Assembly: GCF_000733845.1 (NCBI RefSeq)
Contig: NZ_JPOI01000001.1
Span: 2,023,501-2,087,500, forward strand
Source of the DNA: Geobacillus vulcani PSS1
GTDB taxonomy: Bacteria > Bacillota > Bacilli > Bacillales > Anoxybacillaceae
Direction of reading: 5' to 3'
Length of the DNA stretch: 64,000 bases
Part shown: positions 9,527-20,947 of the stretch, piece by piece
Layout of the letters: each line of letters begins with the position of its first letter
Numbering within the stretch: the first letter of the stretch is position 1
Notes under the pieces: generated by a model
Told to the model about the DNA's origin: nothing
Database searches by the model: none
Seen by the model: only the letters and a program-made list of their open reading frames with translations
Program-made: the position numbers and the translations under genes

Positions 9527-9753
9527 CGGCATCCCTTCCTGTATCGCGAATGTTTATACGTTTTTTTTATGATATGTTAAACAAAATGGGAACATTTTTA
9601 TATGAAATTCCTAATAAAGTTCGATCATTTCCTATTGCCCTTTGACTGTGATTGATGGTAGTATAAATTTAGAACATTCGCAGGACTCGTTGATCAGGGC
9701 GTTTGTTAGTATGCCCGATATGGAAACAATTTATTGATGGGCGGATGACGGCA

Positions 9754-9950
9754 AGGGGAGAGACTACGGAATGTAGCGCCGAAGGAGCAAGCGGAAACGC
9801 GAATCTCTCAGGCAAAAAGACCCTTGCTTGACGCAGCTCTGGAGAGCGCCTGCATTCACGCAGGCCACCCAAGAGGAAACCGATCGGCCCCACGGACCGC
9901 AAACGGACGCGCCAAACGGCCGGCGGGAAACTTTCAGGTGCCAGGACAGA
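9754..9950 (+). promoter_or_regulatory. Tandem glycine riboswitch upstream of gcvT
   Basis: Two consecutive glycine aptamers are readable. The first runs from GGGGAGAGACT (9754) through CGCCGAAGGAGCAAG to TCTCTCAGGCAAAAAGACC. The second contains CGCCTGCATTCACGCAGGCCACCC, CCAAGAGGAAACC and GAAACTTTCAGGTGCCAGG. It is followed by an intrinsic terminator (9945-9988) that overlaps the aptamer end. Glycine binding normally favours read-through into the glycine cleavage genes. The rest of the 490-nt gap between yqhH and gcvT holds only promoter-like sequence: TTGACT at 9642 and TATAAA at 9662, with a short 14-nt spacing. Confidence 0.93.
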
Positions 9951-17033: not shown

Positions 17034-17080
17034 AACAATATATAGTATGATTTTCGTAAAAAATCATACTATATATTGTT
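17034..17080 (+). promoter_or_regulatory. Paired NrdR boxes in the nrdJ promoter
   Basis: Two 16-nt sites are exact reverse complements of each other: AACAATATATAGTATG (17034-17049) and CATACTATATATTGTT (17065-17080). Their centres are 31 bp apart, the spacing known for tandem NrdR boxes upstream of ribonucleotide reductase genes. A -10-like TATGAT (17046-17051) overlaps the first box, with a weak TTCGTT -35 18 nt upstream, so NrdR binding should occlude the promoter. The rest of the 254-nt gap is AT-rich and holds a TTGACA at 17004. Confidence 0.82.
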
Positions 17081-17167: not shown

Positions 17168-17953
17168 ATGACGGTGGCGTCGTCCGAAAAAATGAAGATC
17201 AATATTGACAAGCTGAACGAGGACATCCGCCTATTTCCGCAAGTGCATCCGATTACGCCGGATATGCACATCACCCATAAAGGCGTATCCCGTTTGGTCA
17301 TGTTGGACCGGTATTCGTTCAAAGATACGGAAAAGCTGACGCTCACACCGGGCGATTTCGTCGTGTTGACGATCAAGGAAGATCCGAAGTTCCCGGCTCG
17401 AGGGCTTGGATTTATCGTCGACATCGACTGGGAGGCGAAAAAGGCGCACGTGTTGATTGAGGATGAATACCGGCATGTGCTCGAAGGGGAAGAGGCGGAG
17501 ACCGGCATTGTGGTTCGGTCGCTCGACATTATCGACAAGCCGCTCGAGATTTTCTATGAGCAAATTGCCAAGCGGAATGCGACCGGGCTGGCGGCGGTGG
17601 AAAAGACGGAAGAAAAGCGGAAAGAGTGGTTTGAAAAGTTTTATCAAGAGCTCGCCAGCTTGAATTTTGTGCCGGCCGGCCGCGTGTTGTACGGCGCAGG
17701 GTCGGGCAAGGAAGTGACGTATTTCAACTGCTATGTGATGCCGTTTGTCAAAGACTCGCGCGAAGGCATTTCCGAGCATCGGAAGCAGGTGATGGAAATC
17801 ATGAGCCGCGGCGGCGGCGTCGGGACGAACGGCTCGACATTGCGGCCGCGCCATACGCTCGCGCGCGGGGTAAACGGCAAATCGTCCGGGTCGGTCTCGT
17901 GGTTGGATGACATTGCCAAACTGACCCACCTTGTCGAGCAAGGTGGCTCCCGT
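17168..17953 (+). CDS. nrdJ: NrdJ, B12-dependent ribonucleotide reductase (exon 1)
   Basis: Codes the first 262 residues of the class II, adenosylcobalamin-dependent ribonucleotide reductase, which makes deoxyribonucleotides independently of oxygen. The segment includes TYFNCYVMPF with a redox-active cysteine, SRGGGVGTNGSTLRPR, and ends at GGSR. The next bases are an in-frame TGA at 17954, but the missing remainder resumes at 19160 as RGAQMIML. Joining gives the family-conserved GGSRRGAQM, so this is an exon, not a truncated gene. The ATG at 17168 follows AGGAGA. Regulated through the NrdR boxes just upstream. Confidence 0.92.
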
Positions 17954-19159
17954 TGACTAGGGCGCAAAACGGCGGGAGTAAAATCTCGCGAATTGCTGGA
18001 ACCCCCTAAAGCCAACTTGACCACAACGGAGCTGGCGACGGCAGACGTGACGGTTGGAAAACAAGTTGGATGCAACAATGGGCAACCAGCAGCCGAGCAT
18101 CTCTGGAAACGGAGATGAAGGTTCAACGACTATTGAAACTTCCTACAGCCCTCGGTACAATCAGGGTAACGAACACTGTTTCGTGGGGGGAGGGCTATGG
18201 AAGGAGTAAATCGTATCCCGCGGCAACGGGGATACGAGGCGCGAGACAGGGAAGAGATAATGAAAACAGCAAAGTATCTGCATGAGGAGGGATATAGTCA
18301 AGTTAAAATCGCCATGATGTTGGGGATTTCTAGGGGAACCTTAATGAGATGGAATAAAGATCAGGGAGTATTCCAAACCAGAGCACCTGGAGAGGCTGGT
18401 AAGTTAGCAGTAAAAAAATACGGTTATAACGAGAACTATTTTTCCAATATCAGAACCCCGAATCAGGCTTATTTAGTTGGCTATATCCTAGGTGATGGAA
18501 CGCTATATGATCGTAAAAAATCAAAACGACTTGTATTAACTGTGGCAGAAACCGATAAAGATCTCCTTTATAGTATAGCAAGGGAGATGAATATTGCCCC
18601 TGAAGCTGTGAAGTTTAGAAAAAATAATACATGTAATGAACAAAATAAGTATTCATTAACAATTAGTTGTACAAAAATCTGTAATGATCTCATGAGACTG
18701 GGAATATCCCCTAAGAAAACTGGGAAAGAGCCATGGATACAATTTAACAGTATTGAATTGCAATGGAGTTTTCTAAGGGGGATATTCGATGCTGATGGGA
18801 GTATTAGAGTGTATAGAAGGTATTATCGGGATAGGGAGAAGGACTACCTTAGGGTAAGGTTTGGTATTACTGGATCAAGACCATTACTAGAAGGAATCTT
18901 AAATTTTCTCAAAGCTAATGGAATTGCCCAAAATGTCAACTCCCTAACTGCCAAACAAGGTTGTTTTGATTTATATGTTTCCAGTATTAACGATGTAAAG
19001 AAAATATTCCATCACTTGTATCGATATGGAGACCTTAAGTTGAACCGTAAATACGAGATCTTCTCTTCCCTGATGATATAGTCTGATCTCCGACCGAAAG
19101 GCGGAGAGCTAGGCAGAAATGACCTAGCCCGCTCGTGGAAGCGAGCGAGTAACAATGTG
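17954..19159 (+). mobile_element. Group I self-splicing intron in nrdJ
   Basis: A 1,206-nt intron. The 5' exon end CTCCCGT pairs with the internal guide GCGGGAG (about 17982-17988), closed by the U.G wobble required at a group I 5' splice site (P1). The P element AATTGCTGGAA (from 17991) pairs through GCTGG with CCAGC of the Q element (about 18083-18095), forming P4. R is GTTCAACGACTA (18121-18132) and S contains TAGTC (19079-19083), which pairs with GACTA to form P7. The intron ends in the expected G (19159). CATCTC/GAGATG (18098-18118) forms a further stem. The homing endonuclease gene lies between R and S, in the P8 region. The length is a multiple of three. Confidence 0.93.
18197..19081 (+). 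CDS. LAGLIDADG homing endonuclease encoded in the nrdJ intron
   Basis: A 294-residue protein with two LAGLIDADG motifs, YLVGYILGDGTLY near residue 95 and WSFLRGIFDADGSI near residue 195, so probably a monomeric two-repeat homing endonuclease that cuts intronless nrdJ and spreads the intron. An N-terminal helix-turn-helix, GYSQVKIAMMLGISRGTLMRW (about residues 34-54), precedes the nuclease. Both catalytic aspartates are present and the frame is intact, so it may be active. The ATG at 18197 follows GGGGGAGGG. Base composition is clearly AT-richer than the host genes, a sign of transfer. Its TAG stop lies within the intron's S element. Confidence 0.92.
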   Translation: MEGVNRIPRQRGYEARDREEIMKTAKYLHEEGYSQVKIAMMLGISRGTLMRWNKDQGVFQTRAPGEAGKLAVKKYGYNENYFSNIRTPNQAYLVGYILGDGTLYDRKKSKRLVLTVAETDKDLLYSIAREMNIAPEAVKFRKNNTCNEQNKYSLTISCTKICNDLMRLGISPKKTGKEPWIQFNSIELQWSFLRGIFDADGSIRVYRRYYRDREKDYLRVRFGITGSRPLLEGILNFLKANGIAQNVNSLTAKQGCFDLYVSSINDVKKIFHHLYRYGDLKLNRKYEIFSSLMI

Positions 19160-20947
19160 CGCGGCGCCCAAATGATCATGCTTGCCGACTGGCACCCGGA
19201 CATTATTGAATTCATCGTCTCAAAAATGCAAAACCCGCGCATTTTGCGCTACCTGCTTGAAAATATGGAAGACGAAGGCATCAAAAAAGCGGCGCGCGAC
19301 AAGCTGAAATTCACGCCGCTCACCGAACGGGAGCGGGCGATGTACGAAGCGATCGTCCGCTATAAGAACGCGCCGGACTACGGCGGCTTCACGGAGGAAA
19401 TCATTAAAGACGCGGAAGAAAAGCTGCGCACCGGCGGTACATATACAGTGCACAACCCTGACTTTTTAACCGGTGCGAACATTTCCGTCTGCTTGACGAA
19501 AGAGTTCATGGAAGCGGTCGAAAACGACGAAGAATATGCGCTTCGCTTCCCAGATGTGGAAACCTATTCCGAAGAGGAAATGCGCATTTATAACGAAAAA
19601 TGGCATGAAGTCGGCGATGTGCGCGAATGGGAGAAAATGGGCTACCGCGTTCGCGTCTACCGAAAAATTCGCGCCCGCGAACTGTGGAAGCTGATCAACA
19701 TTTGCGCGACGTATTCGGCCGAGCCGGGCATTTTCTTCATCGACAACGCCAATGAAATGACGAACGCCCGCGCGTACGGGCAAAAAGTCGTGGCGACCAA
19801 CCCGTGCGGGGAACAACCTCTCGCACCATATTCTGTCTGCAACTTGGCCGCCATTAACTTGGCGAACATGGTGGACAAAGAACGAAAGGTCGTTGACTAT
19901 GAAAAACTGAAACGCACGGTTGAAATCGGAGTGCGGATGCAAGACAACGTCATTGACGCGACGCCGTACTTCCTTGAGGAAAACAAAAAGCAAGCGCTCG
20001 GCGAGCGCCGCATCGGCCTTGGCGTCATGGGGCTTGCAGACTTGCTCATTTACTGCGAAAAAGCGTACGGTTCTGAGGAAGGAAACCAGCTCGTCGATGA
20101 GCTGTTCCGCACGATCGCCACGACCGCATATCGGGCGTCGATCGAGCTGGCGAAAGAAAAAGGCAGCTTCCCGTTTTTGGTCGGCGAAACGGAGGAAGAG
20201 ACGCGCAAGCTGCGCGAAGCGTTCATCAACACCGGCTACATGAAACGGATGCCGGAAGACATTCGCCAAGATATTTTGAAATACGGCATCCGCAACTCGC
20301 ACTTGCTGACGGTGGCGCCGACAGGATCGACGGGGACGATGGTCGGCGTCTCAACCGGGCTGGAGCCGTACTTCTCGTTCTCGTACTACCGGAGTGGACG
20401 CTTGGGCAAATTTATCGAAGTGAAAGCGGACATCGTCCAAGAATATTTAGACAAACATCCAGAAGCCGACCCGAACCACTTGCCGCCTTGGTTTGTGACG
20501 GCGATGGACTTGCCGCCGGAAGCGCACGCTGACGTGCAGTGCATCATTCAGCGCTGGGTTGACTCGAGCTTGTCGAAAACGGTCAACGCGCCAAAAGGCT
20601 ACACCGTCGAGCAAGTGCAAAAAGTGTACGAACGGTTATGGCGCTGCGGCGCGAAAGGCGGCACCGTCTATGTCGACGGCAGCCGTGATGCGCAAGTGTT
20701 GACGTTAAAGGCAGAGGAAAATCAGATCGAAGAGCAGCTTGAATTGCTTCCAGAGGAGCTTGAGGAAAAAGAGACGAAACGCCCTGTCGTGCTCGTTGAT
20801 ACGATTCAAGACGTACGCGCCACCGATGTAACCATCGGTTCCGAAATCGGCAATATTTGCCCGATTTGCCGCGAAGGGACGGTCGAAGAGATCGGCGGCT
20901 GCAACACGTGCACGAACTGCGGCGCCCAGCTGAAGTGCGGGTTGTAA
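19160..20947 (+). CDS. nrdJ: NrdJ, B12-dependent ribonucleotide reductase (exon 2)
   Basis: Codes the last 595 residues; with exon 1 the mature protein is about 857 residues. Exon 2 contains the catalytic NPCGEQPLAPYSVCNLAAIN (C478 in the joined numbering is the likely thiyl-radical cysteine) and PTGSTGTMVGVSTGLEP. The C-terminal cysteine-rich tail (CPICREGTVEEIGGCNTC, then CGAQLKC) shuttles reducing equivalents. The junction with exon 1 preserves the frame at CGT|CGC (Arg-Arg). A GTG at 19157 could in principle start this half alone, but no ribosome site precedes it. Confidence 0.92.
   Translation, partial: RGAQMIMLADWHPDIIEFIVSKMQNPRILRYLLENMEDEGIKKAARDKLKFTPLTERERAMYEAIVRYKNAPDYGGFTEEIIKDAEEKLRTGGTYTVHNPDFLTGANISVCLTKEFMEAVENDEEYALRFPDVETYSEEEMRIYNEKWHEVGDVREWEKMGYRVRVYRKIRARELWKLINICATYSAEPGIFFIDNANEMTNARAYGQKVVATNPCGEQPLAPYSVCNLAAINLANMVDKERKVVDYEKLKRTVEIGVRMQDNVIDATPYFLEENKKQALGERRIGLGVMGLADLLIYCEKAYGSEEGNQLVDELFRTIATTAYRASIELAKEKGSFPFLVGETEEETRKLREAFINTGYMKRMPEDIRQDILKYGIRNSHLLTVAPTGSTGTMVGVSTGLEPYFSFSYYRSGRLGKFIEVKADIVQEYLDKHPEADPNHLPPWFVTAMDLPPEAHADVQCIIQRWVDSSLSKTVNAPKGYTVEQVQKVYERLWRCGAKGGTVYVDGSRDAQVLTLKAEENQIEEQLELLPEELEEKETKRPVVLVDTIQDVRATDVTIGSEIGNICPICREGTVEEIGGCNTCTNCGAQLKCGL

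Follow-up and report, generated by a model that had tools for sequence, protein, structure and literature searches.

A candidate mobile group I intron with a predicted LAGLIDADG homing endonuclease gene in the class II ribonucleotide reductase gene nrdJ of Geobacillus vulcani

Introduction

Group I introns have very rarely been reported in bacterial protein genes, especially outside genes for DNA synthesis (PMC4853749; this and the other PMC articles are cited from excerpts), and the known hosts include flagellin, recA and nrdE genes (PMC3984707). In the Staphylococcus phage Twort, group I introns interrupt nrdE (Landthaler et al. 2002, as cited in PMC3653736, PMC3984707 and PMC4853749). As in the locus described here, the ribozyme lies in a gene for the large subunit of ribonucleotide reductase; Twort nrdE has two introns near conserved residues, one of them with an endonuclease. 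However, Twort is a phage with a class Ib nrdE and an HNH endonuclease, whereas our intron lies in a chromosomal class II nrdJ and carries a LAGLIDADG gene. The nrdE and recA introns of Bacillus, among them the nrdE intron of B. anthracis (PMC6145125), resemble it in being chromosomal, in occurring in Bacillales and in interrupting DNA-metabolism genes, but their hosts are class Ib nrdE or recA and not nrdJ (PMC3984707, PMC6145125). A cyanobacterial ribonucleotide reductase intron (Meng et al. 2007, in PMC3984707, where the gene is called nrdE) is likewise bacterial and of group I, but holds an insertion sequence. The flagellin introns of thermophilic bacilli (Hayakawa and Ishizuka 2009, 2012; PMC3984707, PMC4853749) come from the same bacterial group as our intron and are related to it in the P3-P7 half of the ribozyme; the 11 copies at the C-terminal flagellin site are 369-391 nt long, too short to hold an endonuclease.

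Other reports widen this picture. A group I intron is present in Salinibacter nrdA (PMC3019208), the endonucleases of group I introns in R2 genes are mainly of the HNH and GIY-YIG types (PMC8772380), and split phage ribonucleotide reductase genes include two cases of nrdJ, that of the Thermus phage phiYS40 being split by a 12-nt gap (PMC3653736). For ribonucleotide reductase genes, RNRdb has curated more than 100 group I introns (PMC2795772, in excerpt), and its entries may include ours or close relatives of it. The excerpt of PMC3606486 contains nothing on nrdJ group I introns, and our literature search, in which subscription journals were thinly covered, returned no report in which the nrdJ of Geobacillus or of another member of the Bacillales carries a group I intron. 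Group I introns of ribonucleotide reductase genes are therefore known, and the present intron is a new example in nrdJ. We put the probability at about 0.94 that it is a mobile group I intron, which would be spliced from the RNA and spread by its own LAGLIDADG protein.

The host gene and the exon junction

The window is the whole 64,000-nt stretch of Geobacillus vulcani PSS1 DNA that was analysed; coordinates are window positions, and all exon, ribozyme and endonuclease features of the locus lie on the forward strand. Exon 1 of nrdJ (17168-17953, 262 codons; Pfam PF00317 and PF02867) aligns to residues 1-263 of PRK08115, the NCBIfam model of B12-dependent ribonucleotide reductase used for exon alignment, and to residues 1-155 of TIGR02504, while exon 2 (19160-20947, 595 codons and a stop) continues at residues 264-858 and 156-606. 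The two alignments are contiguous in both models, with zero residues lost or gained at the junction GGC TCC CGT|CGC GGC GCC. The junction is the same in the intronless genes of the host family, which read straight through GGSR|RGAQM, and the spliced-together exons encode an uninterrupted class II NrdJ of 857 residues. The 1,206-nt intron between them (17954-19159), delimited by the exon junction and the core structure, opens with the stop codon TGA in the nrdJ frame and closes with a G; since its first codon is a stop, unspliced mRNA would yield a fragment of 262 residues. The first-pass annotation had placed the insertion in a class II nrdJ, between GGSR and RGAQM at 17954-19159 and with a terminal G. 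The alignments of both exons bear out the host gene, the boundaries are exact by both the profile alignments and the intronless relatives, and the G stands at 19159.

The same arrangement is found throughout the host family. All 18 family introns at this site (after codon 262, hereafter site 262) end in G and are flanked by exons that match the empty site, and the nrdJ exons are open in all 18 genes. Codon 262 is CGT in every one of these 18 genes and in none of the 23 intronless ones (for one of the latter, G020, whose aligned row was shifted by one codon, the reading was made by eye). The genome of the window has a class I reductase elsewhere, its large subunit gene adjoining the small subunit gene, so that nrdJ splicing is possibly non-essential; a PF13597 search of the same genome did not find an anaerobic class III reductase. 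A 20-bp inverted repeat beginning AACAATATATAGTATGATTTT lies directly upstream of nrdJ (17034-17080) and resembles paired NrdR boxes or a terminator.

P1 and the splice sites

P1 is formed by the 5' exon strand GCUCCCGU (17946-17953), which ends in the U of a U.G pair at 17953, and by the internal guide sequence GCGGGAGU (17972-17979), the intron strand of the helix. We compared this pairing across the site-262 introns, of which 31 were identified, namely the 18 of the host family and 13 from the 38 other genomes with a break near codon 262; the sample for P1 and P10 was 30, as the boundary in L083 was not placed automatically. The U.G pair, also claimed in the first-pass annotation, was present at the splice site in all 30 introns; a T before the intron and a G at its end were imposed outside the host family, where junction calls were accepted only with both. 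L080, L083, L085, L087 and L103 are among the junctions placed by eye, L112 is without exon 2, and the site-479 junction of the host family was shifted one codon by hand to give the T and the G, sites 262 and 651 being left unshifted. P1 had at least seven pairs in 29 of the 30 introns, and the seventh pair tracks the exon (C-G in 19, A-U in 7, G.U in 3 and a G-G mismatch in 1). The intron bases before the guide can also form a P10-like pairing with their own 3' exon, with a mean of 5.2 Watson-Crick pairs against 4.2 when exons were swapped between genomes (0 of 2000 swaps as high) and 3.0 when letters were shuffled; these controls ignore relatedness, which also adds to own-exon pairing.

The ribozyme core

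At its gathering cut-off of 50 bits the Rfam group I model RF00028 has no match in the window. In a 1.7-kb search it returned two pieces below this score, 17981-18247 (34.6 bits, E 1.1e-6) and 18987-19106 (23.2 bits, E 0.003), and the intron is likely split and under the cut-off because the endonuclease gene is inserted between the two strands of P8. The whole model was matched at 69.6-82.1 bits by all seven host-family site-262 introns without an intact endonuclease that we tested, and at 64.4-85.6 bits by all five introns tested at this site outside the family (L081, L098, L101, L104 and L115), two of which hold ORF remnants.

We wrote out a structure of 16 helices (P3, P4, P5, P5a-d, P6, P6a, P7, P7.1, P7.2, P8, P9, P9.1 and P9.2) and counted its pairs in 21 of the 31 site-262 introns, i.e. 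20 natural forms shorter than 500 nt and the window copy minus its endonuclease. Of 1,765 cells, 97.6% were paired, compared with 88.0% when the letters of the 3' strands were shuffled and 35-43% when the helices were slid by 1-3 columns. Changes on both sides of a pair were seen at 39 of 86 pairs, compared with 20.9 +/- 2.4 in the shuffles and 8-15 after sliding. None of 500 shuffles reached the observed pairing or covariation, these controls ignoring kinship among the sequences. The helices are also kept in all 14 host-family introns within this alignment. The first-pass annotation had made the group I assignment depend on a P3-P7-P8 core; this core is present, with P3, P7 and P8 98-100% paired and each changed on both sides at one or more pairs, and together with the exon junction, the remaining helices, their covariation and P1 it sustains that assignment.

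In the window, the 5' strand of P3 (17984-17990, with two covarying C-G/U-A pairs) is followed by P4, whose strands are the P element (17994-17999) and the Q element (18086-18091). P7 is formed by the R element (18126-18133, with a bulged C at 18127) and the S element (19078-19084), which contains the endonuclease stop TAG (19079-19081). P4 from P and Q and P7 from R and S, as named in the first-pass annotation, are both located in the structure. The P7 pair adjoining the bulge is an A-U pair in 11 of the 21 sequences and a G-C pair in the other 10. P7.1 (18139-18143 with 18199-18203) shows both-side changes at three of five pairs and the P7.2 hairpin (18212-18236) at six of six, with 90% of its cells paired. 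The 3' strand of P3 (18240-18246) lies within the endonuclease reading frame. It is followed by P8 (18247-18254 with 19065-19072), with both-side changes at five of eight pairs, and the P9, P9.1 and P9.2 hairpins (19088-19146), where such changes occur at three of five pairs in P9.1, four of five in P9.2 and none in P9. P9 (83%) and P9.2 (89%) are, with P7.2, the least-paired helices. Subgroup IA is defined by P7.1 and P7.2 between P7 and P3'; both are present here and covary, as predicted for a subgroup IA intron.

The endonuclease gene

The reading frame at 18197-19081 has 294 codons, and its protein scores above the cut-off for PF14528 (E 7.4e-10) and PF00961. The N-terminal helix-turn-helix matches HTH_7 at 23.2 bits, slightly under the cut-off of 23.8. 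The protein has 161 relatives at E <=1e-3, and among the 120 listed many are named LAGLIDADG family homing endonuclease and come from Bacillaceae genera. It contains the motifs GYILGDG (D100) and FDADG (D198, D200), whose acidic residues are invariant in an alignment of 16 proteins, 15 of them hand-picked among the 120 listed relatives. The AlphaFold model (pLDDT 85.4) has a two-domain fold, and a fold search of the PDB gave I-AniI (3eh8, 1p8k) as top match (best E 6.4e-11); all of the best 50 rows carry the title of a homing endonuclease, a meganuclease or the bI3 maturase, with query TM-scores of 0.42-0.52. The endonucleases of the Bacillus nrdE and recA introns belong to families other than LAGLIDADG. 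dN/dS was 0.10-0.25 in 14 of 21 pairs, the other seven being saturated; four of these 14 values involve G374, in which the endonuclease frame is interrupted and its longest stretch has 153 codons, and the values for the window are rough as dS against its endonuclease is saturated or near saturation. On motifs, profiles and modelled fold, the product is predicted to be a LAGLIDADG homing endonuclease that would cleave the intronless allele.

The frame runs over P7.1', P7.2, P3' and P8. This overlap is open in the four long host-family copies and in six copies with a partly or wholly deleted endonuclease, and it hits a stop within ten codons in seven of the eight bare introns. Since the frame is open over the helices in endonuclease-derived copies and closed in bare introns, translation probably starts at 18197 and includes the overlap with the ribozyme; a possible alternative start is 18260, behind AGGGAAGAG at 18248-18256. 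Within the intron, a promoter-like TTGAAA-17-TACAAT (18133-18161) precedes the endonuclease start, and matches of this kind are near chance (2 in the region, 1.0 expected).

The anatomy of the intron given in the first-pass annotation thus stands, but that account left out the endonuclease gene, mobility and the splitting of nrdJ in many relatives.

Distribution and mobility

nrdJ exon 1 was found in all 41 host-family genomes searched; the gene is intronless in 14 and contains one to three introns in 27. The 18 introns at site 262 are of several forms. A long endonuclease ORF is present in four genomes (the window's G000, G019, G033 and, with an ORF that ends early, G030), G004 has an internal endonuclease deletion within an intron of 644 nt, and a clear C-terminal remnant is left in G027 and G064. 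In G009, G013 and G018 there is no endonuclease beyond the P8 strands although the long P7.1 loop is kept, and the remaining eight genomes have a bare ribozyme of 348-358 nt. One gene in one family therefore displays an intron life cycle (empty site, intact endonuclease, deletion, remnant and bare ribozyme).

An exon tree of 19 chosen nrdJ rows, from which codons 241-285 had been removed, shows intron presence to be patchy within one genus. The intron label takes five changes on this tree and is no more clustered than when labels were shuffled (78 of 500 shuffles gave as few changes), and the window gene pairs with the intronless G006 with full support. The closest intron to that of the window, in G004, resides in an nrdJ that is 12% diverged, and an AU test on the exons rejected a clade of the two genes (p 7e-80). 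Of 646 aligned intron positions, 25 differ between the two genes, compared with 319 of 2571 in the exons (p 7e-12). At synonymous sites the contrast is weaker (7 of 31 in the intron, 270 of 577 in the exons, p 0.009) because G004 retains little endonuclease sequence; ribozyme positions are constrained. Similar introns combined with a discordant exon tree are consistent with the intron having been transferred after its hosts had parted. Identity along nrdJ showed no clear tract of co-converted flank. Judged from these comparisons, the intron looks mobile.

A scan of IMG/VR for a phage donor gave no close relatives of the endonuclease. There were 105 phage records with distant endonucleases, all below 60% identity, and 21 with a related P3-P7 core (68.5-73.1% identity in the best 20), which suggests kinship with phage introns but identifies no donor.

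Proposed mechanism and alternative explanations

In the mechanism that we propose, the ribozyme core (P3-P9 with P7.1 and P7.2) would close across the inserted gene, bind guanosine and cleave after the U of the CGU held in P1, and ligation of the exons after the terminal G would restore the nrdJ frame; the anatomy, the covariation and the exact exon junctions point to these steps. At the DNA level, the LAGLIDADG protein would cut an intronless nrdJ near codon 262 and the intron would be copied into the cut allele through repair, as suggested by the intact endonuclease gene, its purifying selection and the patchy, horizontally shifted occurrence of the intron. Relatives would later drop the endonuclease between the two P8 strands while the ribozyme stays. 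Self-splicing and homing, like tolerance of heat, are predictions. The hosts of the ribozyme are probably both heat-loving and ordinary species, to judge from genus names. Natural ribozymes of 341-466 nt at one nrdJ site are available from many species, and direct splicing and homing tests could draw on close relatives that either carry the intron or do not.

Splicing could instead act as a temperature or stress switch for nrdJ and not be neutral removal. Temperature-dependent splicing has been reported for the flagellin introns of thermophilic bacilli (Hayakawa and Ishizuka 2012, as cited in PMC3984707 and PMC4853749), and the 262-residue fragment expected from unspliced mRNA would suit such a switch. 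The 14 intronless host-family genes and the patchiness within one genus are, however, as expected for a selfish element, and we regard a regulatory role as improbable. A maturase function, in which folding of the intron would depend on the LAGLIDADG protein that it encodes, as in the I-AniI intron, appears slightly more improbable still. It would agree with the top fold match (the title of 1p8k describes a bifunctional endonuclease and group I intron splicing factor), with the bI3 maturase among the best 50 structures and with a reading frame that traverses P7.1', P7.2, P3' and P8. However, eight of the 18 host-family introns are bare and in six others most or all of the endonuclease is gone, yet the nrdJ exons are open in all 18 genes and each of the 14 introns in the alignment retains the helices; the existence of bare ribozymes makes a maturase requirement unlikely.

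It is very improbable that nrdJ is dead or dying in this genome, with an insertion that is not removed. The class I reductase may make nrdJ dispensable, but both exons are open and complete, non-synonymous exon sites have changed far less between G000 and G004 (49 of 1994) than synonymous ones (270 of 577), compensatory changes preserve the ribozyme helices, and the class III enzyme was not found by PF13597. As to the kind of element, an intein is ruled out by TGA as the first intron codon, and a search of the window for a group II intron with RF00029 gave nothing at the cut-off. The mobile, spliced group I intron thus remains the explanation that we prefer.

Further introns in nrdJ

nrdJ introns occupy three sites in the host family, after codons 262 (18 genomes), 479 (15) and 651 (5), and in G036 and G064 all three are occupied. 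The endonuclease ORFs vary with the site, being of the LAGLIDADG type at 262 and the HNH type at 651 (PF01844 in the single ORF tested there, that of G015). The site-479 ORF has no Pfam match and appears PD-(D/E)XK-like by eye; G021 has a different ORF there, by eye a GIY-YIG fragment, Pfam giving only helix-turn-helix and similar matches and no GIY-YIG. Site-479 carriers include L052-L055, L058-L061, L066, L068, L070-L072, L075 and L076, with introns of 238-278 nt without an ORF and up to 1,201 nt with the PD-(D/E)XK-like one (by eye). The site-479 introns of L053, L061, L070, L072 and L075 gave no RF00028 match at the cut-off, L061 not even at E 10; from P3 and P7 read by eye we provisionally assign these introns to group I. 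L064 (site 651, with an endonuclease) and L103 (site 264, 1,953 nt) likewise had no RF00028 match at the cut-off, and further nrdJ introns may have been overlooked by Rfam. L097 has an unrelated 183-nt insertion at site 479. In L058 (G017) and L072 (G021), codon 651 is intronless yet reads GGT|AGC or GGT|AGT, codons otherwise of intron-bearing genes, which are possible footprints of precise intron loss.

A wider search of Bacillales detected the first nrdJ exon in 346 of 397 genomes, and among the matches listed many had a broken frame. Outside the family, 40 loci were fetched of at least 62 interrupted rows, counted by eye among the matches listed. In the 38 of these genomes with a break near codon 262, the intron was at site 262 in 13, site 263 in 4 and site 264 in 15, and 6 had site 272 only (some junctions placed by eye). 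G040 (L020, L100) was rejected as a site-262 case, its intron lying at codon 264, 6 nt downstream. Six genomes have a micro-exon between two introns, of 30 nt in G118, G287, G292, G342 and G175 and 24 nt in G101. The nrdJ of G175 (L104) has RF00028 matches at 262, 272 and 651 and, after about codon 481, a match to the group II model RF00029 with a 610-residue ORF, by eye a reverse transcriptase. An HMM built on the P3-P7 half of the window-type intron matched introns at site 263 (E 1e-39 to 4e-41), site 264 (2e-11 to 2e-40) and site 272 (1e-18 to 1e-24), and also flagellin-gene introns (5e-23 to 8e-33); in loci with only site-479 or site-651 introns it had no match at E <1e-3.

As nrdJ is split in many relatives, it is not a rare intron host in Bacillales. 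We would go further only tentatively, leaning somewhat against the full reading, in which few bacterial protein genes, perhaps none, are as crowded with introns as the nrdJ of Bacillales, and the window-type ribozyme moves along nrdJ. This reading includes related cores 3 nt (site 263) and 6 nt (site 264) downstream with re-matched guides, several endonuclease families competing for nrdJ, and one gene in which introns of groups I and II occur together with a micro-exon. If it is true, nrdJ is a natural record of site change by self-splicing introns.

The flagellin intron and other observations

A glycine riboswitch of the ordinary kind is present in the window at 9745-9833 (71.8 bits). Elsewhere in the genome of the window, the flagellin gene contains a group I intron (67.4 bits; L003 1755-2190, C1 ~1301254-1301689) directly before its last 14 codons. 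The 5' end of this intron encodes a mimic of the final codons and stop (QSNQLPQAVLQLLR compared with QANQQPQGVLQLLR), and with this look-alike tail unspliced mRNA would still yield full-length flagellin; the 5' splice site was placed from intronless genes, and the P1 candidates are weak. The double tail was seen in 11 of 13 loci examined (L003, L021-L024, L026-L029, L031 and L032), with both tails finishing in Q and not R in L031, while L030 and L033 have no C-terminal intron and a single tail. LAGLIDADG-like ORFs, recognised by eye, lie downstream of the flagellin gene on the opposite strand in L024 (303-1262, + strand, 320 residues) and L030 (2019-2996, - strand, 326 residues). In L025 (G002, ~1501-1647) a related intron core lies not in flagellin but in a gene that by eye resembles that of a DNA polymerase III alpha subunit with a PHP domain.
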